A stretch of DNA of 64,000 nucleotides from Chitinophaga pinensis (lineage in GTDB: Bacteria; Bacteroidota; Bacteroidia; UBA7662). How positions within the stretch are numbered: position 1 is the stretch's first letter; every line of letters begins with the position of its first letter. The notes beneath the pieces were generated by a model. That model was not told where the DNA came from and did no database searches. It saw only the letters and a program-made list of their open reading frames with translations. Location of the stretch: positions 65,169-129,168 of the forward strand of contig CAMCHJ010000004.1 of the NCBI GenBank assembly GCA_945874665.1, written 5' to 3'. The translations under genes were made by a program, and so were the position numbers. Shown here in pieces: positions 3,667 through 64,000 of this stretch.

Positions 3667-3694
3667 GCCTGCCTAGTTTAAACTTTTTGGAGAG

Positions 3695-3722
3695 CCTTTC
3701 CGTTTTACGGAAAGGTTTTCTT
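3695..3722 (+). terminator. Rho-independent terminator after the PpiD-like gene
   Basis: Perfect 9-bp stem CCTTTCCGT (3695-3703) / ACGGAAAGG (3707-3715) with a 3-base loop, followed by TTTTCTT. It lies 28 bases after the stop codon at 3666. Confidence 0.8.
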
Positions 3723-3744
3723 GTTATAGAGACAAGCTTTTGTC

Positions 3745-8390: not shown

Positions 8391-11300
8391 ATGAACAACA
8401 ACTATTCAATGAGTAGTCTGAAAGGCCTATTGCCCGGAAGACGCTGGCTGTTGCTTCTTTCACTGGTTTTTCTAACGGCCAACGTTTTTGGTCAGGCGAG
8501 AAATTACCAGTTTGGACAGAGCAGCGCGGCCTACACGGAAATTACCGGAGGAACCGTTTCCACCGCCACTGGCGATGATGGAACACAGGTGATAACGATG
8601 CCATTTCCATTTACCTACGCAGGAGCTGCGGTAACTGACATCACTATTGGTACAAACGGTTTTGTGCGTATGGCTGGTGGTTCGATTTTCAGTTCAAACT
8701 GGACGAACTCCTTGACAAGCACAGCCAGTTTGCCTGTGTTGGCTCCTTTTTGGGATGACCATAACTTGGGAACTGGAACTATTGTTTACAATACAACAGG
8801 AACTGCTCCGAATCGTCAGTTTGTAATTGAATTTAGAGATTTAGTTACTTCTGGAACAGGAAATGGAACGGCAACATCACGTGCACGTTTCAAAGTAACG
8901 CTGTTCGAAACTTCGAATCAGATTGTTTACCATTATGGAACATCAACGGTTACCACAACAATTTCAGGTTCTATCGGCATGAACAGCTCGCCTGGTGGTG
9001 TTGGTCAGTTTTTGAGTGTTACGCCAGGGGTGAATGCCACTGCAAATACAAGCGTAGCAAACAATGCCATTGTAACACTTCCGGATAGTGGTGTAGTTTA
9101 TACTTTTACACCGAGCCCAGCAGCATGTAACATGCCATGGGCTATCTCGTCTTCAAACGTTCTTCAAACTGGTTTTACTATTAGCTGGAGAAATTCAGGT
9201 AGCACGTCTTATCGCTATGTTGTTGGTACTTCTGCTACCCTTCCTACTGGTACCGGTACACTCGTTTCAGATACCTTTGCTGCTGTAACTGGTTTGGTTC
9301 AAAATACTGCATATTATGTATATATAAGATCTGCTTGTACCGGTGGTACAAATTCTGGCTGGGCTGGTCCAGTATTGGTTAATACAGGCGGTCCTGTATC
9401 GAGTGTTGCCTCAGGCCTCTGGAGTAATCCGCTTACATGGTCAACAGGTGCTGTGCCAAATGCCGCTTCAGCAGTAACCATTTCTGCAAACGACTCGGTT
9501 ATTTTTGATTTAGCCACCGCATTTGCAGCTAGTTTGCAAGTTAACGGTGTATTAGGTGTAAATGCAGCTGCTCAGCGCATTTTGACGGTAGCTGGTAACG
9601 TTAACGTAACAAGTTCTGGTAGCTTGAACTTTGGTGTTCCAACTACAGGTACTGCTGCTCGTATCATTGATTTGACGGGTAACTTTTCAAATGCTGGTAA
9701 CTCTAACATGGCTAATGGCAATGCTGTTATTCGTTTTATAGGTACTACGCCTCAAACCTTCACCAATACGGGTGCTTTACTAAACAATGCTGTTGGTCAA
9801 TTAGGCATTTCAAATGCTGCTGGTGTAACTTTAGCTTCTCCAGTAACGGTTGGCTTTAACTTGGATTTGATTGCGGGTGTATTAACCGCTGGTAACAACC
9901 TTACTTTTGATCAACTGGCAGTTACGGGTACTTCTTCTCAAGTACGTCGTTCTCCTTTGGGCTCATTGGTGGGTACGCCTACTATAACTTCTACTGTACA
10001 CAATGTGCAGTATGTGTTCTTTACAGGCCAGACTTCTACGCTCATTACAGAAGGCCCGGAAATGCCTGCCTCACGCACTATCAATGCGCTAACGATTAGT
10101 AATCCTGCAGGTTTAAACCTAACTGGTAACTTAACATTAACGGCTGCTGCCTCTGCTTTGACCCTTACTAGTGGTATTATCAATTTGCCTGCTGGTAATA
10201 AGATCATTTGTTCAAACCCTGCTTATGCGCCACTTGCTGGTTCTGCTACTTCGTTTGTAAATGGTGGATTTGAAGTGGTGGTTTCTTCTGGAACAGCAAC
10301 AACCCGTAATTTCCCTGTAGGTTCAGTTGTAACTGGCGTTCCTGTACGAGGCCATGTGGTTATTGCTTCAATAATCACGGGTGCAACTACACCACAGTCT
10401 GTAACTGTAATGCCTGCTGGCACACCATCTGGTGGCGGCGTGAGCCCTATGGGTCCACGTTCATTTGAAATTACAGCCACTGGTTCAATTGGTACCACAG
10501 CTACTGTTGCTTTGAACTGGGATGCCAGAGAGGCCGTGACTTTTGCTGGTAGTTTAGCGAACATTCGCATCGTACAGGCCAGTGCTTTAACAGGCGCTTG
10601 GACGGCACGCAGTGTTTCAGCAACATCAGGTTCTTTGACAGGTGTAGGAACACGCACAACAACTGCAATCAACCTTACTACCGGTGGTAATTTGTTTGCC
10701 TGGGGTTCAGTTGCATCTGGCGACGTTGCAGTAACAAACATAACTAGTCCAGTAAGTGGCGCATGTTTTGGTGCAAGCGAAACCGTAGTTGCAGTACTCA
10801 GAAACGAAGGTGCAAGCATCGATCGTTCTGTCAGCAACATTACCGTGAAAGGCACTGTAACCACTCCGAGTGGAACAATCATTAACTTGAACAACGTAGT
10901 GAGAAACACAGGTACTTTTGCAATTGGCCAAACAGATACCATTATTTTCACGAATGCTTTGAATATGGTTGATTCTGGTAACTATGTAATTAGTGTTTTC
11001 ATTGATTCGCTTACTGCTTCGTTGCGTACTAACGACACCCTTGCGCGTGTTGTTCGTAGTGATGCTTGGACGGCACGTGCTAACCCTGCAATAATTGTTA
11101 CTAGCCAAAGTTCTGTTGTAGAAGTGCTCCGTAACGGGGTGGCTGCTACAGCTGCTGGTGTTTTGCCACGCAATACAGCTGCTGTTAGGCTTTCAGAGTT
11201 AATCGTTTTCAGAACGGGCACTGGGGCACAGCCTATTTACCCTAGTTACATTCCAGCTGCTGCCCAAGATTTCTTGGAGATTACCAATTTTGGTGATACA

Positions 11301-14300
11301 GCTGCGAACATTGGTGGTTGGAATTTGGAGATTTTCGGTACGGGAGCTCGTACGTATGCTTTCCCAGCAGGTACAGTGTTACCAGCAGGTGGTGTATTGA
11401 TATTGCATATTGGTCCTGGTACCGATGATGTAGCCAACAGGTACTACAATACAGGCGGTGCTAATGATGCCTTGTTTTCTACTAGTACTGCAGGTATAAC
11501 TTTGCGTAACGGCAGTTCATTGGTAGATGCGGTTGCATTCAGAGGTTATACGTTCCCTACTACTGCGGGTGTGTCTGCTGCTGATTGGTCTGGCAATAGC
11601 CCAACCACTTCTTCTGCAGGTTTGATGCTCGTGAATTTTGATAACAACAATGCTTCGAATTGGGTGGTTAGTACATCTACTTTGTTTACCAGCATTGGTG
11701 CCTTTAATCCGAACATGTCGTTTGTTTCGCGTAACGTATCTTGGACTGGCCCTAGCGGTTTCACAGCAACAGGATATACGGCACCAACAGGTACTCGTAA
11801 CACTGGTGCTACTGAGCTGTACACAGCAACCATTTCAGGTGGTGCTAGCTGCGTAAGAACGGCAGTGGCTACCTTACAAGTTGTTGTGCCAGTAACCCCT
11901 GTTGCAGGATTTTCTAGAAGCAGCAACACCGCCACTACTGGTGCAGTTGTTTCTACGGTAACCCTTACGGATACATCTTTAAACATTCCTTTCGTACGTC
12001 GTTGGACAATTACTCCGAACACAGTAACGTTTGTGAACGGCACCAACGATAGCAGTATAGCACCACAAGTGCAGTTTACAGCTGTTGGAAGCTACGCAGT
12101 TAAATTGCGAGTTTCAAACCCAGCAGGTACTGATAGCGTGACTGTGAGTAATGCTGTAAACGTAGTTTTGGGATATTGTGCTTCGAATGCTACTAATACA
12201 GGTGATACTAAAATCGACTCTGTAAGGTTAGGAACAGCATTAACGGGCTCAGCTTCTAATACTTGTCAAGCTTACACCAATTTCGCAGATTCATTGGGTG
12301 TAGTTGCTGTTATTACTAAAACGCAGCCTTTCCCTATGATGGTTCGCAGTGGTTATTGCGGTACTACAGGCTATGCGGCACGCGGTCGCGTTTTCATCGA
12401 CTTTAATAAAGATGGTTCATTTACAGCTGACGAAGCCGTTGCAGATTTTGGTCCGCTAACAGCTACTGGATCTGGTTCTGCTAGAGAGTGGTTCAGTATG
12501 AATTTGATTGTTCCTGTGAGTGCAGATACCGGTATTGCGCGTTTGCGCGTTGTATACAGTGAAGGCTCAGGTTTTGCTACTGTATTAGGTTGTGGTACGT
12601 ACGGTTATGGTGAAACAGAAGATTATTTGGTACGCATTACCAATCCAATCATCGCTAACCCTGTTTTGGCTTCACCGGCAAACAATACATTCTTGAATGT
12701 AAATGGTCCTGACCAAGTTCGCGTAAATATCAACTGGACGCCAGCTACACGTTTCTCAGGTACAGGTGCTGCGGCTTCTTACTCTTGGCAATTGGCTAGC
12801 AGAACAGCGGGTAACTTTAATACCCCATTGCTTTCGTTGGCTTCAAACAATTCGGGTGCAGATACTGCCTTGACTTTGTCAATTGGTCAATTAGATGCTG
12901 CACTTACTTCTTTGAGTGTTGCAGTTGGTGATACTGTTAAAGGAATTTGGAGAGTGAGAGCCATTTCAGGAACTGATACTGTATTCAGTCCTCAGACTTG
13001 GAACATTGACATTCGCCGCGGTACAGTTACCGAAGCGGTTACTGCCTTCAGCCTAGTAACACCACCGAACAATACCATTTTGTCAGTGGAAGGCCCTGGT
13101 TCACAAACTGCACAGATTCGTTGGACTAGACCGGTAGTTGCTGGTACTGCACCTGTAACCTACCAATGGTTGGCTACTGGCCCTGGTGGTAACTTCAATA
13201 CGCCTTTAGCGACATTGAATGCCAATGGTTCAGACACTTCTTTGACCTTGAGCTACACAGCTATTGATGCCCTCTTAGCTAGCTTGAACGTAAACGTGGG
13301 TGATTCTGCGCGACTAGATTGGACAGTACGTGTTAACTCTGGTACATTTACACGTTTGGCAACCCAAACTTGGAGAATTACCATGGTACGCGGTGGTATT
13401 GCGCCATTACGTTTTGCTATTGCCCCTGTTGCCAACGGCGGTACTACTGGCGTACGTGCTCCTAACGGAACATCTGGCCACACCTTCTTCCGTGCAGCGT
13501 CGTTTGTACCTGCGAGTGAATTGGCTGCTGCAGGTATCCAGAGTGGTGCAACCATTACAGGCTTTGCACTTCGTACAACTACGGGTGCTGATGCTCCTGC
13601 TAGAGGTAAGATGAGTTTGTACTTGTCGAATGGTCAGAATACTACTTATACACGTGGAACTGCTTGGACTGGTGCTATCACTGGTTTGAACTTACACCAT
13701 GATGATTCGGTAAGCATTCAGACTGGAGCAGGTACCATGCTCTTGCAATTCAGCCAGCCTTTCGTTTACACGGGTGGTTCAATTGAGTTGGCTTACGAGT
13801 GGAATGGTTCTGCACCGTTTGCTACTGTGGCTGCAGTTTATGCTGCTAACACAGCAATAGCTGCTAGTTTGGTTTCAGGCGCATCTGCTACTGCAGCCCC
13901 TGCAACGCTTGCAGCAACTGCTTTCCGTCCTGAGTTTACTTGGGGTGTGGATGATCGCAAGGCAAACGAAATCGAGGTAATCACCATGTTTGCCAAAGGT
14001 CGTAACCCACTTAACTACGGCACACCAGAAGTAGTTCAGGCGATTGTTAGAAACAATGGATATCAGGTAAGGAACAACGTCCCTGTAACTTTAAGTGTTG
14101 CAGGTCCGAATAACTTTACCCAGTTCAATGTTCAAACCATCACAAGATTGGCGATTGATGCTACACAGTTAGTTACTTTCTCACCTATCAACGGATCAAC
14201 TTTAGGTTATAATAACATGACTGTAAGTGTGCCTGCTGATGACGTTGCTGCGAACAATGCTAAGACTTGGGCGCAAGAACAAACAGATAGTATCTTCAGC

Positions 14301-15416
14301 TATAACGACTCTGTTACCGTAGGTAATAGTTCAGTAGGCTACAATACTGGCTCTGGCTTGTTGTTGACTCGTTTCAGCATCAACGGTACACGTTCAATTG
14401 CGGCTGCTCGCATTAGAATCGGTGAGGGCGCTGCCATTGCTGGTAACAGTGTGTCTGCTGTGGTATTGAACGAGAGTGGCGTGATTGTTTCGCAGTCTGC
14501 TCCAGTAGCATTAACTGCTGCCGATTTGCGTACTTGGGTAGTATTCCCATTCACTGCTCCGGCTAACGTTACCAATGGTAATTTCTACATCGGATTAGCC
14601 CAAACAGCGAATGCTACTACAGGTTATTTCCCTGTGGCTTTCCAAGCTGAAACACCAACGCGTGCGAATGCCTACTTCACTGCACCACTTGCTGGTGGTG
14701 TTGTTCCTTCGCCTGTTGCTGGTTTCCGTTTGATGATTGAGGCTCATGTTGGCGCTCCATTTGTACCAGCAGATACTTTGTCACGTTTCAACTTGGTGGC
14801 TCCTTCAAACAACACCACTTTGAACATCCAAGGTGATCCTACTCAAACTGCTCAAATTCGTTGGAGGACTTCTACCCGCACAGGCGGTATAGGTACCACC
14901 ACTTATCAGTGGTTGTTGGATGTACCTGCAGGTGATTTCTCTAACCCAGTGCTTCGTGTGAATGCTGGTACGGATACATCGCTTACCCTTACTTATGGAC
15001 AGATTGTTGACAGCTTAGCTGCCAAGGGTGTGCAAGTAGGTAGTGGATTTGCAGGTCGTTGGAATGTGCTTGCAACTAACGGCCCAGTAAGTCGTTTGGC
15101 GAACATTCCGTTCATCATCACTTTGAACCGTGGTGTGATGACTTCTATCGAAGAAACTGATTTCAGCAAATCAATCAGCTTGTATCCGAACCCTGCTGCT
15201 TATTCTGCCAAGTTGCAGATTAACACACCAGGTGACAAGGAGCTTAGCATCGTGATTGTTAACGCTGTAGGTCAGGAGATGAAGAAGTTCAACGTAAGCA
15301 GTTCTATTGCTAACGACATCGAGCTTGATTTGACAAGCTTGAATCAAGGTTTGTACTTTGTACGTGTAACTAATGGCAGTGAAATGGCCATTAAGCGTTT
15401 GATGATTCAGCGCTAA
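8391..15416 (+). CDS. Giant secreted multidomain protein with T9SS type A sorting domain
   Basis: 2341 residues. The signal peptide is at about 16-35 (WLLLLSLVFLTANVFGQA). Visible order: an N-terminal beta-sandwich (40-250); an Fn3-like domain (CNMPWAISSSN to SGWAGP, about 245-325); a G8-like segment (GLWSNPLTWSTGAVPN, about 340); Ser/Thr/Gly-rich beta repeats; a CARDB-like region (about 785-890); a lamin-tail domain (about 935-1060); a PKD-like domain (about 1165-1255); a GEVED domain (RGRVFIDFNKDGSFTADE to GYGETEDYLVRI, about 1330-1420); three SusE-like domains; another beta-sandwich and CARDB-like region; and a C-terminal sorting domain (SLYPNPA to ASIKRLMIQ-type end). T9SS would carry it across the outer membrane, where the sorting domain is cleaved. 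Lamin-tail, GEVED and PKD modules are common in surface adhesins and enzymes, but no catalytic motif was recognised, so an adhesive or structural role is an inference. Codon choice favours CGT, GGT, GCT and AAC, unlike its neighbours. Confidence 0.88.
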   Translation: MNNNYSMSSLKGLLPGRRWLLLLSLVFLTANVFGQARNYQFGQSSAAYTEITGGTVSTATGDDGTQVITMPFPFTYAGAAVTDITIGTNGFVRMAGGSIFSSNWTNSLTSTASLPVLAPFWDDHNLGTGTIVYNTTGTAPNRQFVIEFRDLVTSGTGNGTATSRARFKVTLFETSNQIVYHYGTSTVTTTISGSIGMNSSPGGVGQFLSVTPGVNATANTSVANNAIVTLPDSGVVYTFTPSPAACNMPWAISSSNVLQTGFTISWRNSGSTSYRYVVGTSATLPTGTGTLVSDTFAAVTGLVQNTAYYVYIRSACTGGTNSGWAGPVLVNTGGPVSSVASGLWSNPLTWSTGAVPNAASAVTISANDSVIFDLATAFAASLQVNGVLGVNAAAQRILTVAGNVNVTSSGSLNFGVPTTGTAARIIDLTGNFSNAGNSNMANGNAVIRFIGTTPQTFTNTGALLNNAVGQLGISNAAGVTLASPVTVGFNLDLIAGVLTAGNNLTFDQLAVTGTSSQVRRSPLGSLVGTPTITSTVHNVQYVFFTGQTSTLITEGPEMPASRTINALTISNPAGLNLTGNLTLTAAASALTLTSGIINLPAGNKIICSNPAYAPLAGSATSFVNGGFEVVVSSGTATTRNFPVGSVVTGVPVRGHVVIASIITGATTPQSVTVMPAGTPSGGGVSPMGPRSFEITATGSIGTTATVALNWDAREAVTFAGSLANIRIVQASALTGAWTARSVSATSGSLTGVGTRTTTAINLTTGGNLFAWGSVASGDVAVTNITSPVSGACFGASETVVAVLRNEGASIDRSVSNITVKGTVTTPSGTIINLNNVVRNTGTFAIGQTDTIIFTNALNMVDSGNYVISVFIDSLTASLRTNDTLARVVRSDAWTARANPAIIVTSQSSVVEVLRNGVAATAAGVLPRNTAAVRLSELIVFRTGTGAQPIYPSYIPAAAQDFLEITNFGDTAANIGGWNLEIFGTGARTYAFPAGTVLPAGGVLILHIGPGTDDVANRYYNTGGANDALFSTSTAGITLRNGSSLVDAVAFRGYTFPTTAGVSAADWSGNSPTTSSAGLMLVNFDNNNASNWVVSTSTLFTSIGAFNPNMSFVSRNVSWTGPSGFTATGYTAPTGTRNTGATELYTATISGGASCVRTAVATLQVVVPVTPVAGFSRSSNTATTGAVVSTVTLTDTSLNIPFVRRWTITPNTVTFVNGTNDSSIAPQVQFTAVGSYAVKLRVSNPAGTDSVTVSNAVNVVLGYCASNATNTGDTKIDSVRLGTALTGSASNTCQAYTNFADSLGVVAVITKTQPFPMMVRSGYCGTTGYAARGRVFIDFNKDGSFTADEAVADFGPLTATGSGSAREWFSMNLIVPVSADTGIARLRVVYSEGSGFATVLGCGTYGYGETEDYLVRITNPIIANPVLASPANNTFLNVNGPDQVRVNINWTPATRFSGTGAAASYSWQLASRTAGNFNTPLLSLASNNSGADTALTLSIGQLDAALTSLSVAVGDTVKGIWRVRAISGTDTVFSPQTWNIDIRRGTVTEAVTAFSLVTPPNNTILSVEGPGSQTAQIRWTRPVVAGTAPVTYQWLATGPGGNFNTPLATLNANGSDTSLTLSYTAIDALLASLNVNVGDSARLDWTVRVNSGTFTRLATQTWRITMVRGGIAPLRFAIAPVANGGTTGVRAPNGTSGHTFFRAASFVPASELAAAGIQSGATITGFALRTTTGADAPARGKMSLYLSNGQNTTYTRGTAWTGAITGLNLHHDDSVSIQTGAGTMLLQFSQPFVYTGGSIELAYEWNGSAPFATVAAVYAANTAIAASLVSGASATAAPATLAATAFRPEFTWGVDDRKANEIEVITMFAKGRNPLNYGTPEVVQAIVRNNGYQVRNNVPVTLSVAGPNNFTQFNVQTITRLAIDATQLVTFSPINGSTLGYNNMTVSVPADDVAANNAKTWAQEQTDSIFSYNDSVTVGNSSVGYNTGSGLLLTRFSINGTRSIAAARIRIGEGAAIAGNSVSAVVLNESGVIVSQSAPVALTAADLRTWVVFPFTAPANVTNGNFYIGLAQTANATTGYFPVAFQAETPTRANAYFTAPLAGGVVPSPVAGFRLMIEAHVGAPFVPADTLSRFNLVAPSNNTTLNIQGDPTQTAQIRWRTSTRTGGIGTTTYQWLLDVPAGDFSNPVLRVNAGTDTSLTLTYGQIVDSLAAKGVQVGSGFAGRWNVLATNGPVSRLANIPFIITLNRGVMTSIEETDFSKSISLYPNPAAYSAKLQINTPGDKELSIVIVNAVGQEMKKFNVSSSIANDIELDLTSLNQGLYFVRVTNGSEMAIKRLMIQR
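12661..15130 (+). repeat. Three SusE-like repeat domains within the T9SS protein
   Basis: Three copies of about 115-120 residues start near 12661, 13045 and 14776. Each begins with a SP/TP-x-NNT-x-L motif (SPANNTFLNVNG, TPPNNTILSVEG, APSNNTTLNIQG), then an I/V-x-W strand, SYSWQL/TYQWLA/TYQWLL, GNFNTP or GDFSNP, D-T-(A/S)-L-T-L, and ends in a W-x-V-x-A strand and a FI(I)D/TL-RG linker. The pattern resembles the starch-binding-associated SusE/SusF outer-membrane domains. The first two are adjacent; the third is separated by about 1.4 kb. Confidence 0.6.
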
Positions 15417-50046: not shown

Positions 50047-50373
50047 ATGAACAGTCCTGGAATCGAAAAATTGCAAAGCAACATGGAACAACTCGATTTG
50101 AATGATTTGAAAATAGCCACAAAGACGTTTCGTGCCATCAATCACCCGTTGCGGTTGAACATTGTTCGTTTGATTGAGGAATTTAGTCGCTTATCGGTTA
50201 CCCAGATTTATTTCAAATTGCGGATTGAACAGTCAGTGGCTTCGCAACACTTGGCCATCTTGCGCGAATGCGATTTGTTGGAAGCTACACGAGATGGTAA
50301 AAATATTTATTACACCATCAACACACCCAAGTTGCATGCCATCCAGCGCAGCATTCAAACCCTCAGGGCTTAA
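50047..50373 (+). CDS. ArsR-family winged-helix regulator, no metal site
   Basis: 108 residues. Winged helix with TFRAINHPLRLNIVRLIEEF, VTQIYFKLRIEQSVASQHLA and the wing RDGKNIYYTINTPK. It is similar in order to the regulator at 35799 but lacks cysteines at the metal-binding helix entirely. It is convergent with the lamin-tail gene with an 11-base overlap, and lies 72 bases after tsaB. Its targets are unknown. Confidence 0.8.
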   Translation: MNSPGIEKLQSNMEQLDLNDLKIATKTFRAINHPLRLNIVRLIEEFSRLSVTQIYFKLRIEQSVASQHLAILRECDLLEATRDGKNIYYTINTPKLHAIQRSIQTLRA

Positions 50374-52900
50374 GGCGATTGATTACAATACGCTGTAAAA
50401 GCCGTCCCGTTTCTCCGTTTTCATCGTAAAAAGAAGCTTGCAACAGGTAAGCGCCAGTTTTTAAGGCTGCTCCTTGTACCGTGCCATCCCAAAATAGTTC
50501 CATTTCACCGGTACACAGTTGCAGAGGCAGCAAGGTAGCCAAGGATTTTCCTCCCGTATCCAAAACATCTATTTTTAGCATTTTGGCGCTGTTTGCCGAA
50601 AATTGAATCCGTGTTTGTTCCCATTGATCGGGACGAATGCTGGTAGGTTCGGCGGTAAAACCCGCGCGCATGGCTTGTGCTAAGTGCGTACGGCTGTTTT
50701 TTAGTCCTGGCGTACCCCGAATGCTCGTTTGTGCACTGCTAAAATTGCTTTGCGAGCTGCCTTCTAGTCGTTCAAGGGCCATGCCGCGGGTTTCGCTGAG
50801 GAGGGGATGGTGCAGACTATCGTTGAACAGCAACTGGTGGATGGTTTGGCCGGCTTGATCGAGCAGCACCAAGCGGCCCCCCGATTGGTTAAGGGTAGGC
50901 CAACTGCTCATCTGCAGTCGGTTGGTAAGCGGAACGGCGCCGAAATCGCGCTGTAAAGCCGTGGTATCTCTACAAAACACCATGTATTGGTTGGGGAAAA
51001 GCACAAAAGGGAGGCTGCTGAGTGCAATGGCCTGACTTGGTTGCCAGTCGTTGTCAGCAGCACTGATGATGGTTTTGCTGAGGTCGATGCTGTTGTTGCT
51101 GCCATTAAAAAGCTCAAAATAGCTGGTGCCTGCGGTGGTAGGGCGGTAATAAATTTCGTTGAACAGCAACTCGCCCGCCATGGGCATTTCGCCTTTGCCT
51201 ATGCGGTATTGCGCGGGTGGGGCCACTTGGCCGTGACAATCGTACCACTGGCTAGCGCTTACCAAGGAACCAGAGGAGCGGACTGTAACCACATCCACAG
51301 GCAGGGGTATTTTCCACTGATGTGCTACTTTACTGCTGTTGGGAAGCGCCAGCGGTGCTCCTTCCAACAACAACATACCTGGCTGCACGGCCTGTGAAAA
51401 CTGCAAGAGCACACTGTCGCCGGGCAGCCAGAGTGCGTACTGGAGCTGGGGCAAGGGAGGCGGCACAGGGCTGCCGAAAATGCTGTTGGGCTGGCCGGGA
51501 CTGCCTCCGTTGGGATGCTGACTGGCTTTCCAATTGCTGCTGTCGATACAATCGCTGCTTGCAGACACACGTTCATAGCTCCAGCCACCTTGTTGTTTTA
51601 CCACATTGCCGAGCCAAGGCACCTGGTAATGCATCGAATCGATCAACAAACCGGTATTGCTTCGGAGTCGCAGCCAGTCTTGGTCGTTATTAAGCAATGG
51701 CCACGGCTGCACTTCCAAAACTGGACCGTAACCTGTCCACAAAGACGCAGCGGCAGGCGGTACCAGCAACACAAAAGTTTTAGGTTGCAACACAAAATCA
51801 GGCAAAACACCATCCGTTCCCGGATCGCTCCACAGCCAGCCACCCATGGCAATGGGGTAATCGGTGGGGTTATACAATTCCACAAATTCTCCTTCCGGCA
51901 AACCAACTACCGGCGTGGGGTCGGCCATCAGTTCGTTGATCACCACATCGGCCGCTTGTAAGGTGCGGTGGAGTAGTTGGAGGGTGGTGTCGAGTACATT
52001 GCCGGCACTGTCGCTGAGCTGCACATCGAGCTCGAGGAGGGCTGGACTTGCGAACGGCTGTTGCCATTCGAGGTAAACGGAGCTGTCAATACCCGCTTGC
52101 ACAGCCGAAGGCGCACCCCAGCCAATCAACTGATAATTTGAAGGCAGTAATAAGTCACGCGCACGCGGCCATTCCGAAAATTTGAGCTCCCAGCCGCGGT
52201 CGCCCACCAGCACCGAGCGGGTTACGAGTGGCGCCAGGGTATCGGGAACAGGACCGCCAATGACCTCAAAATCATCCAAGAAAAACTTATCGGCACGGGT
52301 GGCGGTGTACACGAGCCGCAGTCCAAACCACTCGCTGCCACGATGCACCAAATCCGAAGCCGTGCCCTCCAGCACATACTGCTGTCCTGTGCCGCTGCTG
52401 TCGGTCCACAATTGCCAAAGCCCCTGCGCATCGCGTGCTACCTTCACTCGGAGCGGGTTGTCGTTACGGTTCAGCAGGCCATCGCGCCCATCGATGATTT
52501 TGGTACGTGTATTGCCGCTTTGTCGGTACAAACTCACTTCATCAGTGGTATTGCCGAGGCGCACAAAATAGCCATTCAGCGGTCCGTCGAAATGGCTTTC
52601 ATCGCTTACCAAATACACATCCGCATAATTGGTAGAGGAGGGGTTGAATGCCAGTCGCGACCACCATTCCCAGCTCGCCCCATGGATGGCTTGCGAAGTG
52701 GTACGCAGCTGCGAGCGGGCACTGCTGCCGGGTGCCAGCAATTGCAGTTGTCGTTGGCCGTTGATGGTAAAATGACTGCTATCGCCAAGCCAGGCAGGTG
52801 CTGCGTGGAAATTACTGTCGGTAAACGCATCCACAAATTGCGCGGCGCAAAAATGGCCTGTACAGAGCCACAAAAGCGTAAGCGAGACTAAAGTTTTCAT
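50363..52900 (-). CDS. Surface protein with LamG-like and two lamin-tail domains
   Basis: 845 residues. Signal peptide (LVSLTLLWLCTGHFCAAQ). An N-terminal concanavalin A/LamG-like domain (about 20-220) is followed by an Ig-like linker (about 225-320). Two lamin-tail (LTD) domains lie at about 325-460 (INELMADPTPVVGLPEGEFV) and 585-720 (LLFNEIYYRPTTAGTSYFEL). The C-terminus (about 745-845) resembles the FlgD/CHU_C-like Ig fold that ends many Bacteroidota surface proteins (LQASFYDENGETGRLLQRIV). No enzymatic motif. Its gene overlaps the ArsR-like gene by 11 bases at the 3' end. A secreted adhesive or ligand-binding role is inferred. Confidence 0.75.
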   Translation of the reverse strand: MKTLVSLTLLWLCTGHFCAAQFVDAFTDSNFHAAPAWLGDSSHFTINGQRQLQLLAPGSSARSQLRTTSQAIHGASWEWWSRLAFNPSSTNYADVYLVSDESHFDGPLNGYFVRLGNTTDEVSLYRQSGNTRTKIIDGRDGLLNRNDNPLRVKVARDAQGLWQLWTDSSGTGQQYVLEGTASDLVHRGSEWFGLRLVYTATRADKFFLDDFEVIGGPVPDTLAPLVTRSVLVGDRGWELKFSEWPRARDLLLPSNYQLIGWGAPSAVQAGIDSSVYLEWQQPFASPALLELDVQLSDSAGNVLDTTLQLLHRTLQAADVVINELMADPTPVVGLPEGEFVELYNPTDYPIAMGGWLWSDPGTDGVLPDFVLQPKTFVLLVPPAAASLWTGYGPVLEVQPWPLLNNDQDWLRLRSNTGLLIDSMHYQVPWLGNVVKQQGGWSYERVSASSDCIDSSNWKASQHPNGGSPGQPNSIFGSPVPPPLPQLQYALWLPGDSVLLQFSQAVQPGMLLLEGAPLALPNSSKVAHQWKIPLPVDVVTVRSSGSLVSASQWYDCHGQVAPPAQYRIGKGEMPMAGELLFNEIYYRPTTAGTSYFELFNGSNNSIDLSKTIISAADNDWQPSQAIALSSLPFVLFPNQYMVFCRDTTALQRDFGAVPLTNRLQMSSWPTLNQSGGRLVLLDQAGQTIHQLLFNDSLHHPLLSETRGMALERLEGSSQSNFSSAQTSIRGTPGLKNSRTHLAQAMRAGFTAEPTSIRPDQWEQTRIQFSANSAKMLKIDVLDTGGKSLATLLPLQLCTGEMELFWDGTVQGAALKTGAYLLQASFYDENGETGRLLQRIVINRLKP

Positions 52901-54711: not shown

Positions 54712-57700
54712 GTGAAAAATACTTATTCTCTTCCCTTAATCAAATGGCCAATGTGGTCTGTTTTTTTTAGTCAGTTTACATGCTTGTCAAAGCGTTTGCC
54801 AATACTGAGTTGGTTCTTTGTCATGATGTTCATCAGCCATTTATCGAGCGCTTCGATTCTCTACGTAGGTGTGCAGGGGACAAATATTGCCGGCTCTGGA
54901 ACAGAACAACTGCCTTTTCAAACCATCCAATTTGCTTATAGTCAGGCCAATTCTACTGATACCATTATTCTACTTCCCGGCATTTATAATCAGCAATTTA
55001 CTTTTGCTGCCATCAAGGATGTAGTATTAGCCTCAAAATATTTACTTACTCAAGACACTTCTTTTATCTCAACAACCATTATCGATGGAAGTCAGTATTT
55101 TGGCCAATCTGCCTTAATTGAAATTTATGGTGGTTCTAGTAAAATACGTATTAAAGGATTGACAATCCAGAATTCAACGGCGAGGGTTTTGTTTGTCTCA
55201 AATTCAGGTAATTCAAACATATCAAATTGCTATTTCAAAAATAACGGAAATTCCTCCTTATGGGGAACACTTTCAATTAACGCAATCACTAACAGCAACT
55301 TCTCTTTATTTGAGAGTCGATTTATTGGAAATCGTGGCAGATACATCATCGGAGGCCCAATAACGATTGAGCGATGTTTTTTTAGTGCTAATGGACAGGG
55401 CCAAGGTGTATTTGAAAATGCCATTATATACCCTGAGCATAATGGGGCGAAATCTAGGATTTTATATAATTATTTTACTGGAAATCATATCCCGTGTATA
55501 GCTGGTGGAGGCAATGCTAATGGTATGGATAGCGTAGAGATTATTAATAACACAATAATAAATAATAATGCCGCTGGGTTTTATGTCCAAAATTATGGCG
55601 GTGGACAGAAGTTTTATCTTACCAATAATATCATTCAAGGAAATACCCCCAACCTACTATTTAATAACAGCGGATATTCTCATGTTATTTTTCGAAACAA
55701 TTACATCAGTCCTTTTTCCAAAAACCAAGAGCCCAGTCCTTTAAATTTTTTAATTGTTCACATACATACAGATTCTACAGGAAACGGCGGATTGCGTTTC
55801 AATCAAAATAATGGACTTTTTGAGTTAGCACCAAGTAGTAAGTTAATTGGTGCAGGTGCAACAATCGCTTCCTTATCTGCTGATTTTTTAGGTCAGGTGG
55901 TGCCTAATCCATTGAATACAATTTTAGATTTAGGTGCGATTGAAAGTAATGCGGGAGCGCCTACGATTGTTTTCGATTCAATCCAGCCAGTTTGCTCCAG
56001 CCAGCCTAATTTTCTCCTCAATAATGTTTCGCCTCCTGGGGGAACTTTCGCTGGTCCAGGCATAATAAATGGAAATACGTTCAGTCCATCGTTAGCAGGA
56101 GCTGGCCGCCATGTTGTTCTTTATACCTTCATTAATGCCAATAGCCTAACGATTATAGATTCGTTTGAAATTGAAGTTCTTTTTGCTCCGGTTGTGCAAT
56201 TAAGCAATTTAGGAGATTCAATACTTTGTTTTGGTGGTTCTGCCTTATTAGTGGCAGACAGTGTGCCTGGCGCTACTTATCGTTGGATACAAGAGGATGC
56301 GATTGTGAATGGATTAAAAGTAGAGGTGTACAGCACGCATTCGGGTGTAGGTTCGAACAACGACTACCCGGCACAACCCACTTCGCGTGCTGAGTTTAAT
56401 AAGTTTTTTGATACGACCTATCAAAGCACGAGTTTACACTATCAGGGAAGGCACAATGCTCTGCAGAGCTTGAGTTGGAGTGGAATGGCCGCGCTTACAA
56501 ATGCTGGCATCGCGGTTCCTAATAATGGTGACTTCTTTGCAGTTCAGGTAAGTGGGTTTTTCAATCCCAGTGAAACGGGCACATATCGTTTCAATGCTAG
56601 TTCTGATGACCACATGGATTTGATTATTGGAGATAGTTTGGTTTTGTCCTCGTATTTGGCAAGTAACGGCCAAATCTATTTACAAGCTGGTCAGCGGGTA
56701 GCATTCAAGGCGCGCATGCAAGAGTATGGGGGCTATGAGTCATTAAATGTGCGCTGGGAGAAACCATCTCATTTAAATTCGGGCAATTGGCAATTAGATA
56801 CGCTTGAGTTGAATGGTTCACGTGGCGCCGTTGTATTGGCTGACACTGCAAGGAGTATCATGGTGGCTGAAAGCGGGACTTATCGTGCCGATGTAACCAC
56901 AATTACGGGCTGTACAGTAAGCAGTAATGCCTTGCAGATATCAGTATTTCCTTTGCCGGTGGTAACCCTCGCGGCTTTCAATCCAGTTTGTTTAACCGAT
57001 AGCGTAAGCATTCCGCTTACGAATGGACGGCCACTAGGCGGCACCTATAGCGGTGTTGGCGTAAGCAATGGGGTGTTCAATTCGTTGACGGCAGGAGCTG
57101 GCGTGCACGAGATATTCTATACTTACACCGATAGTACGGGCAATGGCTGTACCAATACAGCTATTCAGAAAATGGTGGTATTGCCTCTTACAGTGAATAT
57201 GCAGGTTGCCAATTTTTGTGCTCCTGGCCAAGCGATTGCGAGCATTGCCGATTCATCGGTTTATGGCGTGCAGTGGTTTAGAAACAACCAGTTGATTAAG
57301 GATGTGCCTGTTTCTTATGCTTTTTCAGGACAGGAGTTGCATACGAATTTGGGCTTTCCCTATGATATGATTTTGGATGCACAAGGCAATCGATATATTG
57401 TGCAATTTCAGGCGCAGCGTGTGGTGCGTTATGCGCCGGGCCAACAGAATTTCACGGTAGCAGCAGGTGGTAATGGCAATGGAGCCGGCTTGAATCAGTT
57501 ACACAATCCAACAGGTGTTGCTGTAGATGCTGCAGGTAATGTGTTTGTGGCAGATCATTCCAATCACCGGATTGTTCGCTGGGCACCTGGGGCCACTGCA
57601 GGTGTTGTTGTTGCCGGAAGTGCTTTGGGCATTAATGGCACCGCGACCAACCAATTACATCACCCTTATCAGTTAAAGTTTGATGGTTCAGGTAGGTTGT

Positions 57701-60700
57701 ATGTGACAGATAGAGATAATCACAGGGTAATGCGTTATCCTGCAACAGTTAGTACAACTACTACTGCATTAGCAGGTACGGTGATTGTGGGTGCTGCAGG
57801 AACTGGCAGCGCTAACAATCAATTGAATGCACCCTACGCTATATTCATTGATGTACAGACGAATAGGATGTATGTAAGTGATGATAATAATGCAAGGATC
57901 ATGCGCTATGATTTGTCGGCGACCAATGTGGCCAACTCAGGCATGCGTGTTGCTGGCGGTAATGGTCATGGAGCCGGCTTGAATCAGTTCTCGAACCATA
58001 TTGCGGGAATTTTGGTGCAAGGAGGAGATATTTACTTGGCTGATATGCATGGTGCTCGGATCATGCGTTGGAAAGAGGGGGCAGCGAGTGGACAAGTGAT
58101 TGCAGGGGGTGTTGGTTATGGCCCACAGTTGTTCAGGGTCTCTAGGCCAACGGCTGTTCGCATAGATGCGCAAGGCAATCTGGAGTACTTAGAAAGAGAC
58201 CATGCGCGTTTGGTGCGATTTGCTGCCAACAGTTCAAACCGCGATACGCTTGCCTTTACCGAGGCGGGAGTTTACCGGGCAGAGTTCAAGCGATTCGGCT
58301 TAAATTGCGTATCCACATCGTCTAACTTTACCATCAACAAGCCAATTGCGCAGATATCCTCCTCAAGAGGGTCAACGGTATGTGAAGGCGACACCACTAC
58401 TTTGAGTACGCCTGCACTGGCTGGTTATGCCTATCAATGGTACAAAAATGGCCAATCGATTGCGGGTGCAAACACCAACACTTACATTACGAGTGTTCCT
58501 GGAAGTTATACGGTGGAGACGGGTGATTCGAGTGGTTGTTTCTTTACTTCGGCCCTGTTTGTTATTCATGCAAAACCGCAGGTTAACCTCACTGCTGATG
58601 GCTTATGCCTTGGGTCATTATTGCAGGTTTCGACCACTGATTCAAATGTAGTTGGATTTGATTGGCTGCAGAATGGCAGTGTTGTCAATCAAGTGCGTGC
58701 TGGCTTTGAAGAAGCAGGGGAGCCATTTGTGGCCGCGAATACTGGCAATATGTTTGGTTTGAACCAACCGTTTGACCTTGCTACGGATAATTTGGGGAAT
58801 ATTTACTACAGTGAGCAAGGTAATCACAGGGTTGTTAGGCGTGCGCCCGATGGTTCGTCGCCGTTGGTGGTGGCAGGTAATGGAATTGCAGGTTCTGGAT
58901 TAAGTGCATTGGATCGACCTACAGGAATTTTCGTCGATGCTGCGTTGAATGTTTACGTGGCGGATATGGGTAATCACCGAGTGGTTAAATGGGCGCCAGG
59001 TGCAACGCAAGGGGAGTTAGTGGCTGGCACAACGGGAGTGGCAGGAAGCACTTTAGCACGATTGAATGAGCCTATGGATGTAGTGGTGGATGATTCGGGA
59101 GCGGTATATGTGGCTGATAAAAACAACCACAGGGTAGTAAGGTGGATGCCAAATGCTACTTCTGGTACTTTATTTGCGGGCACTGGAACTTCTGGAACGT
59201 CAATTAATCAGTTAAATGAGCCGTATGGTTTGGCAATTTGGAAGGGCGGGGTTTACATTGCAGACCATTGGAATAGTAGGGTAATTCGCGTATTCAATGG
59301 CATCAACACAGTAGTTGCCACTAATTTGCCGAATGGAGACCAGCGGATTTCCAGTGTTCATGTAGATAAAATAGGTGCAATATATCTATCTGAATTGTTC
59401 AATAATCGTGTTGTTCGATGGTTTCCAGGTGCATCTACTGGTGAAGTTGTTGCTGGTGGCAATGCCAACGGTAATGCAGCCAACCAACTTGGCCAGCAGA
59501 TTTATGGCATTACCACGGATTTGCAAGGCAATTTGTATGTAGCAGATGGCATTTGGAATCAACGAATCATGAAATACAACCGAGTAATTATAGAGACAGA
59601 CTCGTTTGTTCCCACAACATCAGGCAGTTATGGTTTAATGACGCATACCGTACAAGGTTGTAGCTATCAACATTCAGGTGCTTTACAAATCCTCTCTCCT
59701 GAAGTCAATTTGACTTCTTCAGCTGGATTAGATGTTTGTGAAGGAGATACTACAAGCTTAAGTACTATTCAAGATTCAACGTACACATTTAAATGGTTCA
59801 GAAATGGGGCACAAATAGCTGGAGCAACAGCCAGCAATCTTACAGCATTTGAGCCTGGTTTATATCACGTGGAGGTGCTTGACAGCAATGCTTGTTCAAG
59901 GACTTCTGAAAGCATGCGCATTTGGCCCAAGCCAGTTGCTACCCTTACGGCTAATGGCTTGTGTTTGGGCTCACAACTAACGACCAATTTACCTGACAGT
60001 AATGTGGTTCAGATTGACTGGTTCAGGAATAATCAGTTGGTAAAACAAGTAAGCCGCAAATATTTGAGTGAAGGGCAGCCTGTTTTAGGCAACTTCAATG
60101 GCTGGATCAACAACATTCCGTTTCATTGGGGCATGGGTGATTTTCACATCCATACCGACGGGTCTATCTATATCTCTGATATGCACGACAGGCGTGTAGT
60201 TAGGTATTTTCCGAGCACAGGCCAATTTACAGTGGTAGCTGGTGGTAACGGAAGTGGCAATGCATTGAATCAATTGGATAATCCGCAGGGGGTATTTGTA
60301 ACCTCAAATGGAGATGTATATGTGGCCGATTATGGCAATCATCGGGTTGTGCGTTGGTCACCAGGCGCCACGGCTGGTGTAGTGGTTGCAGGCGCAACGG
60401 GTCAAGCGGGTTCAGCGTTGAACAGGCTCCATGGCCCATTGGATGTGTTTGTAGATCAAATAGGGCAAATGTTCATCGCAGATGAACAAAACCATCGCGT
60501 GATGCGATGGGCGCCGAATGCAACTAGCGGTGTGTTGGTGGCAGGTTCTACTGGACAGGTTGGGTCAGCACTTAATCAGCTGCACTCACCAGTTCGTGTA
60601 TTTGTTTCGAATAGTGGGTTACTTTATGTAAGTGATATTTCTAACAACCGGGTAATGCGCTATGCTCCTGGCAGTTCAACGGGTACAGTTGTGGCCGGTG

Positions 60701-63700
60701 GTAATGGGGCGGGTATTGGTCTCCAGCAATTAAATACGCCTATTGGTATTTTTGTAGACCAAACTGAGGCTTTATACATTGCTGATCTTCAAAATAATAG
60801 AGTTGTAAAGTGGAATAATGGTGCCACAGCTGGGCAAGTAGTTTCTAACAATGATAGCCTGAGCATGCCGAACCGAGTTAATCAGCCAAGAAGTGTGGCT
60901 ATCGGGCCTAACAAGGAGCTCTATGTTGTTTCTAATAGTCAACTATTGCTCAAGTTTGGATTCGATGCCATGACCTCAGATTTACTTGTTCCAGAAAATG
61001 CTGGTAGTTACTTTGTTAAGATGTTGACCAAACAGGGGTGCGAAAACAGCTCAATGCCAAGCATTATAAGCTCTCCAGATGTTAACTTACAATCTTCACT
61101 TGGTTTTGATGTTTGCGAGGGAGATACTACGCAGTTAAGCACCATTCAGAATGCGACTTATACCTATCGTTGGTTAAAAGATGGTATTCAGGTTGCAGGA
61201 GCTACAAATAGCTTTATTAACGTATCTCAGCCGGGCTTGTATCAAGTTGAAGTAACGGATAGCAATAGTTGTTTAAGGTCTTCCGAGACCCTTCGTGTAT
61301 GGCCGAAGCCGCTTGTGAGCTTGACAGCCGATGGCGTTTGCTTAGGCAGTGAATTACTCACCAATACGCCGGATAGTCAGGTTGTACAAATAGACTGGTT
61401 CAGAAACAACCAATTGTTTAGAAATACCAGAGCTAACTTTAAGGCAAATGGAAGTGCTCACCTCGGATATTTTAATGGTTTGTGGCTACGTGATATTGAA
61501 TTTCAAGGGGCGGGCATCAGTGATGTACATGTACATCAGGATGGGGCTATGTATGTGTTAGCACAAACAAATCAGTTTTCTGGGATCAGCGTTTTGAAAT
61601 ATACTCCTAATGCTAATGCGTTTGTACTGGTAGCTGGTGGCAATGGTTTCGGTAGTGCACTTAACCAAATTGGCGGATTTTCTGCTGCCATAGGCTATGG
61701 CGGCCTGTTTGTTGCTGAAAATGGGGATATCTATGTGGCCGACCGTACAAATCACCGTGTGGTGAAATGGACGCCAGGTGCAGCCCAAGGTATTGTAGTG
61801 GCTGGCGGCAATGGAAGTGGCTCAGCATTAAATCAACTCAGCAACCCGCAATCAGTTTTTGTTAATGGTTCAGGGGATGTTTTTGTAGTAGATCAGTCGA
61901 ATCACAGGGTAGTTCGTTGGTCGATAAGTGCCAATACGGGAGTGGTAGTCGCCGGAGGTAATGGCTTGGGCGCTGGATTAACCCAGTTTAATAACCCGCG
62001 CTTTGTAACGGCAACTTCAAATGGTGATCTTTATATAAGTGATCAGAACAACCATCGGGTAGTACGTTATGCAGCAGGTGCCAGCGCAGGTGTCGTAGTG
62101 GCTGGAGGTAATTTTAGTGGTACAGCACTAAACCAGCTTAATCAACCTAATGGCATTGCAGTTGACAAGTCCGGCAATGTTTTTGTTGCAGATCGATTTA
62201 ATAATCGTATTGTGAGATGGGCGCCTGGCAGTACTTCGGGAGAGGTAGTTGCTGGCTTGAACCTAGGAAATGCTTCAGGTTTAGATCGCACAACTCGTCC
62301 AGTTAGTTTAAAATTAGGGTCAGATTACAGGCTTTATGTAACCAGTGTGGATACTGTGAATGGTTCGATTAACCTAAATAGCTCGAATCGGTTGATGAGT
62401 TTCGAATTAAACAGGTTAGTGGCAGATACCCTTCGTGCCCAGCAAGGGGGTAACTACAGCGTTGTTTTTACGAATATAACCGGCTGTTCTAATGGAAGTC
62501 AAGAACTCAATGTATTTGACCCACAAGTCAATTTCCCTGCCTTGGCCAACAGCTGTATTTCAGATGCATCGCGGTTGCTGAATACCGCTACACCAGTCGG
62601 TGGCACGTATTTTGGCTTAGGCGTTGATACCGGCTATTTCCATCCAAGTATTGCAGGAGTGGGTAGTCACATGCTCTATTACCTATATACTGATTCCAAT
62701 GGTTGCTCTAAACTCGACAGCCAGACCATTCAGGTAGTCCCTGAGCCAGTGGTGAGCATCGATACGCTCGGTAGCATGAATTTATGTCGAGGTGAGTCGG
62801 TTGTTCTGCAGTCGCCATTAGTAACCGGTCAAACCTACCAGTGGTACCGCAATGGGGTATTGATTCCGCAAGCCACACAGCGCGCGTTTACCGTGCGTGA
62901 TACAGTGAGTGCACAGTACCATGTGATGGTGACCAGGAATGTGTGCGAAAAGAGCTCAGATACCTTGGAAGTGGTTGTGAGACCCAAGCCGGTGGTCACC
63001 ATTGCAAACCCGGGAGCAGCTACGATTTGTCAAGGTGATTCGGTGATTTTGCAAGCAGCGAGCGATACGGATGTTACCTATCAATGGTATCGCAATAACC
63101 AGCTTTTGGTGGGCAGTACACAAACCTCTTTAGTGGCCAATCAATCGGGAAGCTATACATGCCAAGTAATCAAGGCAAACGGCTGTGCAGATACGTCGAA
63201 TGTACTAGCCTTGACTGTACTTGACTTTCCAATTGCTCAAATCACACCTGCCAGTGCCACCACGGTTTGTGATGGTCAAATAGTGCTATTGAACGCCAAT
63301 CAAGGGGTGGGCCTCACGCACCGCTGGTTTAGGAACGGTGTGCTGATTCCTGGGGCTAACGCATTCAATTATCAAGCCACTACCAGTGGTGACTATACAG
63401 TGGAGGTGATGCGCCAGCAGCTTTGTGAAACCCTTTCGCAAGCAGTTACAGTAGTGGTTAATCCATTACCACAAATCAGCATAGCCGCTACACAGGGTAA
63501 TCAGTTTTGTTCCGGTGATTCAATCTTAATCACGGCGCAGTCAACAGCACAAGTGCTGCGGTATGCCTGGTTCCGCAATGGTCAATCGACTCCTAGTGAT
63601 TCAACAGCCAATTTTTATGCCACCTTGCCGGGCCATTACCACGCCCGTGTGTTTGACTCAGCTGGTTGCGATCAGGCCTCTGATTCGGTTTTGGTGGGCT

Positions 63701-64000
63701 ATTTTAATCCTCCTTTTGCCAATGAAGCCATTTGTGCTATCTCTGTAGATACTTTAGCTGGTAGAAACGTAGTGGTTTGGGAGAAAACGGCTGGAGTGCG
63801 CACCTCGTCCTATAATGTTTACAGAGAAGGAGCCATCTCAGGTCAGTACAACCTCATAGGTAATGTGCCTTATGATTCCCTTTCTATATTCATCGACACT
63901 ACGGCAAATCCGTTATCGCAAAGTTTCCGCTACAGGTTAGCAACGGTTGACTCTTGCGGTTTTGTTTCGGCTCAAAGCAGTGTACACCGTACGATTCACT
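54712..64000 (+). CDS. Giant secreted multidomain protein: beta-helix, PA14, NHL propellers, Ig and Fn3 (partial)
   Basis: One frame stays open from a GTG at 54712 to the window edge, at least 3096 codons; an ATG at 54751 is an alternative start. A hydrophobic export segment (PILSWFFVMMFISHLSSASI) is followed by a pectate-lyase-like beta-helix (54850-55950, with ILYVGVQGTNIAGSGTEQLP). Next are a PA14-like domain (56300-56790, SGFFNPSETGTYRFNASSDD), then four modules of about 457 residues from 57190 to 62520. Each module has a six-unit NHL propeller with NHRVVRW-type motifs, and the last three also have an intact Ig-like domain. The PA14 domain and all four propellers appear inserted in Ig-like domains. 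GGTY-type domains lie near 56000, 57000 and 62600; four tandem Ig-like domains and an Fn3 start close the visible part. No sorting domain or stop is reached. A large surface adhesin or matrix protein is likely but not proved. Confidence 0.9.
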   Translation, partial: MKNTYSLPLIKWPMWSVFFSQFTCLSKRLPILSWFFVMMFISHLSSASILYVGVQGTNIAGSGTEQLPFQTIQFAYSQANSTDTIILLPGIYNQQFTFAAIKDVVLASKYLLTQDTSFISTTIIDGSQYFGQSALIEIYGGSSKIRIKGLTIQNSTARVLFVSNSGNSNISNCYFKNNGNSSLWGTLSINAITNSNFSLFESRFIGNRGRYIIGGPITIERCFFSANGQGQGVFENAIIYPEHNGAKSRILYNYFTGNHIPCIAGGGNANGMDSVEIINNTIINNNAAGFYVQNYGGGQKFYLTNNIIQGNTPNLLFNNSGYSHVIFRNNYISPFSKNQEPSPLNFLIVHIHTDSTGNGGLRFNQNNGLFELAPSSKLIGAGATIASLSADFLGQVVPNPLNTILDLGAIESNAGAPTIVFDSIQPVCSSQPNFLLNNVSPPGGTFAGPGIINGNTFSPSLAGAGRHVVLYTFINANSLTIIDSFEIEVLFAPVVQLSNLGDSILCFGGSALLVADSVPGATYRWIQEDAIVNGLKVEVYSTHSGVGSNNDYPAQPTSRAEFNKFFDTTYQSTSLHYQGRHNALQSLSWSGMAALTNAGIAVPNNGDFFAVQVSGFFNPSETGTYRFNASSDDHMDLIIGDSLVLSSYLASNGQIYLQAGQRVAFKARMQEYGGYESLNVRWEKPSHLNSGNWQLDTLELNGSRGAVVLADTARSIMVAESGTYRADVTTITGCTVSSNALQISVFPLPVVTLAAFNPVCLTDSVSIPLTNGRPLGGTYSGVGVSNGVFNSLTAGAGVHEIFYTYTDSTGNGCTNTAIQKMVVLPLTVNMQVANFCAPGQAIASIADSSVYGVQWFRNNQLIKDVPVSYAFSGQELHTNLGFPYDMILDAQGNRYIVQFQAQRVVRYAPGQQNFTVAAGGNGNGAGLNQLHNPTGVAVDAAGNVFVADHSNHRIVRWAPGATAGVVVAGSALGINGTATNQLHHPYQLKFDGSGRLYVTDRDNHRVMRYPATVSTTTTALAGTVIVGAAGTGSANNQLNAPYAIFIDVQTNRMYVSDDNNARIMRYDLSATNVANSGMRVAGGNGHGAGLNQFSNHIAGILVQGGDIYLADMHGARIMRWKEGAASGQVIAGGVGYGPQLFRVSRPTAVRIDAQGNLEYLERDHARLVRFAANSSNRDTLAFTEAGVYRAEFKRFGLNCVSTSSNFTINKPIAQISSSRGSTVCEGDTTTLSTPALAGYAYQWYKNGQSIAGANTNTYITSVPGSYTVETGDSSGCFFTSALFVIHAKPQVNLTADGLCLGSLLQVSTTDSNVVGFDWLQNGSVVNQVRAGFEEAGEPFVAANTGNMFGLNQPFDLATDNLGNIYYSEQGNHRVVRRAPDGSSPLVVAGNGIAGSGLSALDRPTGIFVDAALNVYVADMGNHRVVKWAPGATQGELVAGTTGVAGSTLARLNEPMDVVVDDSGAVYVADKNNHRVVRWMPNATSGTLFAGTGTSGTSINQLNEPYGLAIWKGGVYIADHWNSRVIRVFNGINTVVATNLPNGDQRISSVHVDKIGAIYLSELFNNRVVRWFPGASTGEVVAGGNANGNAANQLGQQIYGITTDLQGNLYVADGIWNQRIMKYNRVIIETDSFVPTTSGSYGLMTHTVQGCSYQHSGALQILSPEVNLTSSAGLDVCEGDTTSLSTIQDSTYTFKWFRNGAQIAGATASNLTAFEPGLYHVEVLDSNACSRTSESMRIWPKPVATLTANGLCLGSQLTTNLPDSNVVQIDWFRNNQLVKQVSRKYLSEGQPVLGNFNGWINNIPFHWGMGDFHIHTDGSIYISDMHDRRVVRYFPSTGQFTVVAGGNGSGNALNQLDNPQGVFVTSNGDVYVADYGNHRVVRWSPGATAGVVVAGATGQAGSALNRLHGPLDVFVDQIGQMFIADEQNHRVMRWAPNATSGVLVAGSTGQVGSALNQLHSPVRVFVSNSGLLYVSDISNNRVMRYAPGSSTGTVVAGGNGAGIGLQQLNTPIGIFVDQTEALYIADLQNNRVVKWNNGATAGQVVSNNDSLSMPNRVNQPRSVAIGPNKELYVVSNSQLLLKFGFDAMTSDLLVPENAGSYFVKMLTKQGCENSSMPSIISSPDVNLQSSLGFDVCEGDTTQLSTIQNATYTYRWLKDGIQVAGATNSFINVSQPGLYQVEVTDSNSCLRSSETLRVWPKPLVSLTADGVCLGSELLTNTPDSQVVQIDWFRNNQLFRNTRANFKANGSAHLGYFNGLWLRDIEFQGAGISDVHVHQDGAMYVLAQTNQFSGISVLKYTPNANAFVLVAGGNGFGSALNQIGGFSAAIGYGGLFVAENGDIYVADRTNHRVVKWTPGAAQGIVVAGGNGSGSALNQLSNPQSVFVNGSGDVFVVDQSNHRVVRWSISANTGVVVAGGNGLGAGLTQFNNPRFVTATSNGDLYISDQNNHRVVRYAAGASAGVVVAGGNFSGTALNQLNQPNGIAVDKSGNVFVADRFNNRIVRWAPGSTSGEVVAGLNLGNASGLDRTTRPVSLKLGSDYRLYVTSVDTVNGSINLNSSNRLMSFELNRLVADTLRAQQGGNYSVVFTNITGCSNGSQELNVFDPQVNFPALANSCISDASRLLNTATPVGGTYFGLGVDTGYFHPSIAGVGSHMLYYLYTDSNGCSKLDSQTIQVVPEPVVSIDTLGSMNLCRGESVVLQSPLVTGQTYQWYRNGVLIPQATQRAFTVRDTVSAQYHVMVTRNVCEKSSDTLEVVVRPKPVVTIANPGAATICQGDSVILQAASDTDVTYQWYRNNQLLVGSTQTSLVANQSGSYTCQVIKANGCADTSNVLALTVLDFPIAQITPASATTVCDGQIVLLNANQGVGLTHRWFRNGVLIPGANAFNYQATTSGDYTVEVMRQQLCETLSQAVTVVVNPLPQISIAATQGNQFCSGDSILITAQSTAQVLRYAWFRNGQSTPSDSTANFYATLPGHYHARVFDSAGCDQASDSVLVGYFNPPFANEAICAISVDTLAGRNVVVWEKTAGVRTSSYNVYREGAISGQYNLIGNVPYDSLSIFIDTTANPLSQSFRYRLATVDSCGFVSAQSSVHRTIH

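Follow-up and report, generated by a model that had tools for sequence, protein, structure and literature searches.

We have analysed a 64,000-nucleotide stretch of DNA from Chitinophaga pinensis (assembly GCA_945874665.1, contig CAMCHJ010000004.1, positions 65,169 to 129,168), here called the window, whose forward strand encodes at positions 54712-63999 a giant, presumably secreted protein that very probably, as judged from sequence and structure prediction, contains four NHL β-propellers nested within immunoglobulin-like (Ig) domains. The open reading frame (ORF) runs on beyond the window end and, with the contig continuing past this point, encompasses 3285 residues (L011:381-10238). In the proposed architecture, the chain would leave each of four split Ig domains after strand C', fold a whole six-bladed propeller of about 300-330 residues and return to contribute strands E, F and G, with a fifth Ig holding a PA14 domain likewise. 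We consider it probable that the protein as a whole is a rod of Ig_7-like domains, exported by the type IX secretion system (T9SS), whose split Igs hold propellers and PA14 as binding heads, most likely along an adhesin-like stalk.

Propellers between the halves of Ig-like domains

The four modules, termed N1 to N4, each consist of an N-terminal Ig half, an NHL propeller and a C-terminal Ig half, all encoded on the forward strand. In N1, the N-terminal half extends through strand C' (57184-57306, residues 825-865) and is followed by the six-bladed guest (57307-58239, residues 866-1176) and by a C-terminal half with strands E-F-G (58240-58347, residues 1177-1212). The equivalent segments are found in N2 at 58573-58695, 58696-59595 and 59596-59703 (residues 1288-1328, 1329-1628 and 1629-1664), in N3, whose guest is six-bladed, at 59929-60051, 60052-60975 and 60976-61083 (residues 1740-1780, 1781-2088 and 2089-2124) and in N4 at 61306-61428, 61429-62421 and 62422-62529 (residues 2199-2239, 2240-2570 and 2571-2606). 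Uninterrupted Ig_7 domains are located between N1 and N2 (58330-58581, residues 1207-1290), between N2 and N3 (59686-59937, residues 1659-1742) and between N3 and N4 (61063-61314, residues 2118-2201), and four further copies follow in series at 62737-63696 (residues 2676-2995). The uninterrupted Igs of the protein match Pfam Ig_7 (PF19081), a family of CHU_C-associated Ig-like domains, above its curated cut-off.

The original prediction, made from the sequence alone, had placed four NHL blocks each between two halves of an Ig-like domain, and all eight motifs quoted in its support are found in order and in one frame, with positions correct to within 5 bases. The N-terminal halves carry VQWFRNNQLIKDV (57268-57306), FDWLQNGSVVNQV (58657-58695), IDWFRNNQLVKQV (60013-60051) and IDWFRNNQLFRNT (61390-61428), and on the level of these motifs the C-terminal halves end at 58308, 59661, 61041 and 62487. 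The same Ig family does occur without interruption elsewhere in the protein, as exemplified by DVCEGDTTSLST...DSNACSRTSE at 59731-59910. The split had been assigned to a position past the Trp-containing strand and before a strand ending in Gly-Cys. The former can be refined to a site after C', one strand beyond the Trp strand C, and before E, and the latter does not apply to the first module, which ends in LNC.

Profile searches with the propellers removed were a check proposed in the original prediction. We used a hidden Markov model (HMM) built solely from seven uninterrupted Igs of the giant protein, including the four C-terminal copies in series, with the split hosts excluded. When joined without linker, the pair of halves outscored each single half in every one of the 14 modules, and in all 14 the natural order scored higher than the reversed one. 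With linkers consisting of X or Gly-Ser the same was found for 13 modules, the exception being L017b, which then scores slightly below its own C-terminal half. These linkers superseded one borrowed from a real Ig, which could itself have added to the score. In 200 shuffles per module and linker, the true score was reached only once, by a single module from outside the window with a single linker, which rules out a chance likeness of the flanks to Ig domains. Pfam Ig_7 recognizes the rejoined hosts weakly, with best scores of 17.2 and 22.6 bits falling below the curated cut-off of 27.3, which leaves them outside of the family in its strict definition. The matches obtained after rejoining come from the host of PA14 and from a single NHL host. 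In contrast to standard Ig_7 domains, the hosts are split by at least 300 residues and therefore go undetected by the model when the protein is searched intact.

The two halves also tend to occur together. The first 14 modules served to train HMMs for the two half-domains, which were then applied to 25 NHL blocks from other loci. At a threshold of 2 bits, both halves were detected in 14 blocks, neither in nine, only the C-terminal half in two and only the N-terminal half in none (Fisher p 2.7e-5). The respective numbers were 12, 10, 2 and 1 at 4 bits and 11, 10, 3 and 1 at 6 bits. One of the blocks containing solely the C-terminal half is part of the locus L083, where a further insertion has displaced the N-terminal half. 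This co-occurrence is supportive of nesting at the level of sequence but does not provide independent proof.

Structure prediction by AlphaFold2 of residues 1655-2207, covering N3 and its two uninterrupted neighbours, resulted in a model with a mean predicted local distance difference test (pLDDT) score of 87.3 and a predicted template modelling (pTM) score of 0.74. The predicted host contains strands B (LTTN, 102-105 in the numbering of the model), C (VVQIDWFR, 111-118) and C' (QLVKQVS, 121-127) before the propeller and E (SDLL, 435-438), F (GSYFVKMLT, 444-452) and G (SIIS, 463-466) after it. Strands in the first neighbour are located at 27-30 (TSLS), 38-43 (TFKWFR), 46-50 (AQIAG), 55-58 (NLTA), 62-69 (GLYHVEVL) and 81-84 (MRIW), and in the second at 486-489 (TQLS), 497-502 (TYRWLK), 505-510 (IQVAGA), 514-517 (FINV), 521-528 (GLYQVEVT) and 540-543 (LRVW). 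Since the predicted host strands match those of the uninterrupted neighbours in set and order and are similar in spacing, the guest appears to replace the C'-E loop. In a second model, of the second copy in L083, the host strands recur and the propeller is well predicted, whereas the part corresponding to an additional laminin G-like domain is poor, with two sequences available. The original proposal that a guest propeller takes the place of an Ig loop is thus supported for the C'-E loop by both models, the HMM comparisons and the recurrence in other genomes described below, and the split Ig-like domain can be regarded as predicted to be built from both flanks of the guest.

NHL repeats and the predicted fold identify the guest as a six-bladed NHL propeller. 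In N3, five of its blades have four strands each and the last has three, to which the segment QPVL from the N-terminal side likely adds the fourth, and the ends of the guest would therefore probably meet in one blade. Foldseek groups the guest with the six-bladed NHL propellers Pizza6, PknD and TRIM71, which it resembles in both sequence and predicted fold. A search of the PDB with the nested profile retrieved alignments confined to the propeller, with no chain aligned also over both Ig halves.

Recurrence and origin of the modules

The nested arrangement is not unique to the giant protein but recurs in other Bacteroidota. Modules were found in the genome contigs L012 (three), L013 (one), L014 (three), L015 (one) and L017 (two), whose titles refer to metagenome-assembled genomes of Chitinophagales, Chitinophagaceae, Sphingobacteriia, Sphingobacteriales and Bacteroidetes, and further ones in G602, which belongs to the family of the window's genome, and in G253, G391, G577 and G673. 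When 20 modules originating from eleven genomes or contigs were aligned, a Cys in the N-terminal half (position 14, as counted in the first row) and another in the C-terminal half (position 373) proved invariant throughout, as did a Gly ahead of strand F and residues of the propeller core. A disulfide bridge joining the two halves of the host is plausible. The first module of L083, which is not part of this alignment, lacks the first Cys.

A survey of Bacteroidota, likewise proposed at the outset, detected full-length nested matches, defined as extending from model position 10 or lower to 370 or higher, in five of 395 genomes of the class and three of 395 genomes in a sample of the phylum (own genome included in both cases) and in 12 of 199 genomes in the order of G391. 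Not counting the genome of the window, such matches are present in 15 different genomes altogether, these counts being lower bounds with few candidates scored per genome. No nested match was found in the two nearest relatives of the same genus and in most of the family. In the window's own genome, only one further NHL repeat match was found, which is located in a 433-residue frame (G000 C1:388716-388796).

The four modules are spaced by 463, 452 and 459 residues. Their guests share 35-46% and their hosts 25-53% identity, compared to mean identities to modules elsewhere of 35% for guests and 21% for hosts, and the identities of hosts and guests are correlated (r 0.72, 190 non-independent pairs). 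On this basis, the four copies look like products of an Ig(NHL)-Ig unit that was duplicated in tandem, and not of four independent insertions. Common descent plus transfer may underlie the recurrence in other genomes.

Other guests, protein ends and known systems

The Ig site is not restricted to propellers. In the giant protein, a PA14 domain splits its Ig host (residues 492-747) at the same place, with an N-terminal half of an Ig_7-like domain at 56185-56313 (residues 492-534), a guest region at 56314-56838 (residues 535-709), whose Pfam PA14 core corresponds to residues 116-198 of the module, and a C-terminal half at 56839-56952 (residues 710-747), all on the forward strand. The rejoined halves match Ig_7 with an E value of 1.3e-4. 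Searches for relatives of this module gave none in viral contigs and matches restricted to the PA14 region in 295 genomes of the class, and PA14 nesting has therefore been seen in the giant protein only. A deeper level of nesting is found in L083 (IMGVR_UViG_3300042691_052503), where a Laminin_G_3 domain with concanavalin A-like fold (E 7.8e-23) is enclosed by an NHL propeller, which in turn sits in a split Ig. This unit occurs twice in tandem, at 93-1952 and 2217-4067. Although listed as viral, L083 consists of one long Bacteroidota-like ORF. It is conceivable, but in our view somewhat less than evenly supported, that the C'-E loop of Ig_7 domains is a general socket for varied guests (NHL propellers, PA14 and propellers holding laminin G-like domains) in secreted proteins of Bacteroidota, which would be a T9SS counterpart of the display by RTX adhesins that standard annotation misses as the host is split.

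The C terminus of the giant protein carries a T9SS type A sorting domain (residues 3211-3282, TIGR04183, E 2.7e-9, above cut-off), which marks it as predicted T9SS cargo. Pfam reports NHL (E 6.9e-63 for the whole protein), Ig_7 and PA14, and together with NCBIfam detects further SGL/gluconolactonase-like and ScyE/ScyF matches and weak Vgb-like ones. Towards the N terminus, a probable right-handed β-helix (55117-55707, forward strand, residues 136-332) matches Beta_helix weakly (E 0.0019), with 18.3 bits falling below the Pfam cut-off of 25.9. Elsewhere in the window, a second giant T9SS-type protein of 2341 residues (8391-15416) combines SusE, GEVED, LTD and G8 domains with a secretion tail, and adjoining the gene of the giant protein the reverse strand encodes an 845-residue protein (50363-52900) in which a Lamin Tail Domain is accompanied by a weak match to a FlgD-like Ig.

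The original prediction knew of no described protein with such an arrangement. This does not hold for the design as such, since in the RTX adhesins FrhA, MpIBP and AhLap split Ig-like domains project ligand-binding domains off the adhesin axis, with the termini of the guest lying on one side (PMC10865825, PMC12077191). Common to both systems are the discontinuous Ig-like domain, from which the chain exits to fold a guest before it returns to finish the Ig, the very long chains of Ig-like domains and the presence of PA14 among the guests. Guest termini are adjacent in RTX adhesins and may be so here, as the strand count of the modelled propeller suggests. Conversely, the main guest of the giant protein is a six-bladed NHL propeller, present four times, and the protein contains a T9SS tail instead of the RTX repeats at the C terminus that accompany type I secretion. 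The chain exits after the first strand in the RTX-like case of AhLap, the only one described strand by strand, and after C' here. The word 'propeller' is absent from the AhLap paper, and literature searches in open-access papers retrieved no description of an NHL domain nested in an Ig or of a propeller as guest. What thus appears new, as far as we found described, is the propeller guest combined with the T9SS route. In other known cases of nesting, the Ig-like hybrid domain of integrin β subunits contains a whole inserted I-like domain and in prolyl oligopeptidase a propeller is the guest of a hydrolase. In neither of them is a propeller known to be held by an Ig host.

Role of the guests and alternative readings

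Since the ends of the propeller would meet in one blade whereas those of an Ig domain are at opposite poles, nesting would allow the Ig rod to continue with the propellers hanging sideways, a putative geometry equal to that of the guests in RTX adhesins. The protein may be attached to the surface and bind ligands through its guests. Whether propellers and PA14 act as displayed binding heads with an adhesin-like role is to our judgement evenly balanced. Among the alternatives, nested units that mainly lend structural bulk to a long surface fibre or act as its spacers, and that bind no ligand specifically, form a possible but less likely scenario. The guests have diverged to the described extent and no shared outstanding surface motif was noted, which speaks for this reading, whereas the use of the same site by a different fold, PA14, and the presence of binding domains in split Igs of adhesins with studied guests (PMC12077191) argue against it. 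We regard it as improbable that the propellers are enzymes on an Ig stalk, of lactonase- or lyase-like activity as in related SGL and Vgb propellers. The enzyme-related profile matches would favour such a function, but NHL itself gives the strongest Pfam match, NHL domains and the designed Pizza propellers are the nearest structural neighbours, and the proximity of the enzyme-like models to NHL makes these matches weak evidence. Finally, a serial arrangement, in which the flanks would be linkers or small domains in their own right and propellers would simply take turns with Igs along the chain, could be invoked to account for the fact that the halves of N3 taken singly match no Pfam family and that most rejoined NHL hosts escape Ig_7, but we reject it as very improbable in light of the rejoining scores in all 14 modules, the predicted strands, by which each half contributes only some of the strands of an Ig, correctly ordered and with complete Igs on both sides, and the joint presence or absence of the halves in 23 of 25 NHL blocks.

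Several observations weigh against the nested binding-head reading itself. Pfam Ig_7 finds only one of four rejoined NHL hosts, N3, and this weakly (E 0.0062), so the hosts have to be considered divergent. The fold model drew on only 14 related sequences, and it is from the pattern of strands in this model that their pairing across the split is deduced. Among the loci that provided the 25 NHL blocks, some had been retrieved by means of models that include the half-domains, a source of bias in the co-occurrence of the halves, and in case of a tandem duplication the four copies count as a single observation of the insertion site. Ligand binding, localisation and adhesion of the giant protein are putative.

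With respect to the nested reading, the predicted models portray an Ig domain that hosts a propeller, a fit for which the geometry offers a simple explanation. Because ordinary domain annotation misses split hosts, binding heads of giant surface proteins of Bacteroidota may go unseen, and if split Igs mark ligand-binding guests as reported for RTX adhesins, T9SS cargo would contain many candidate binding domains.

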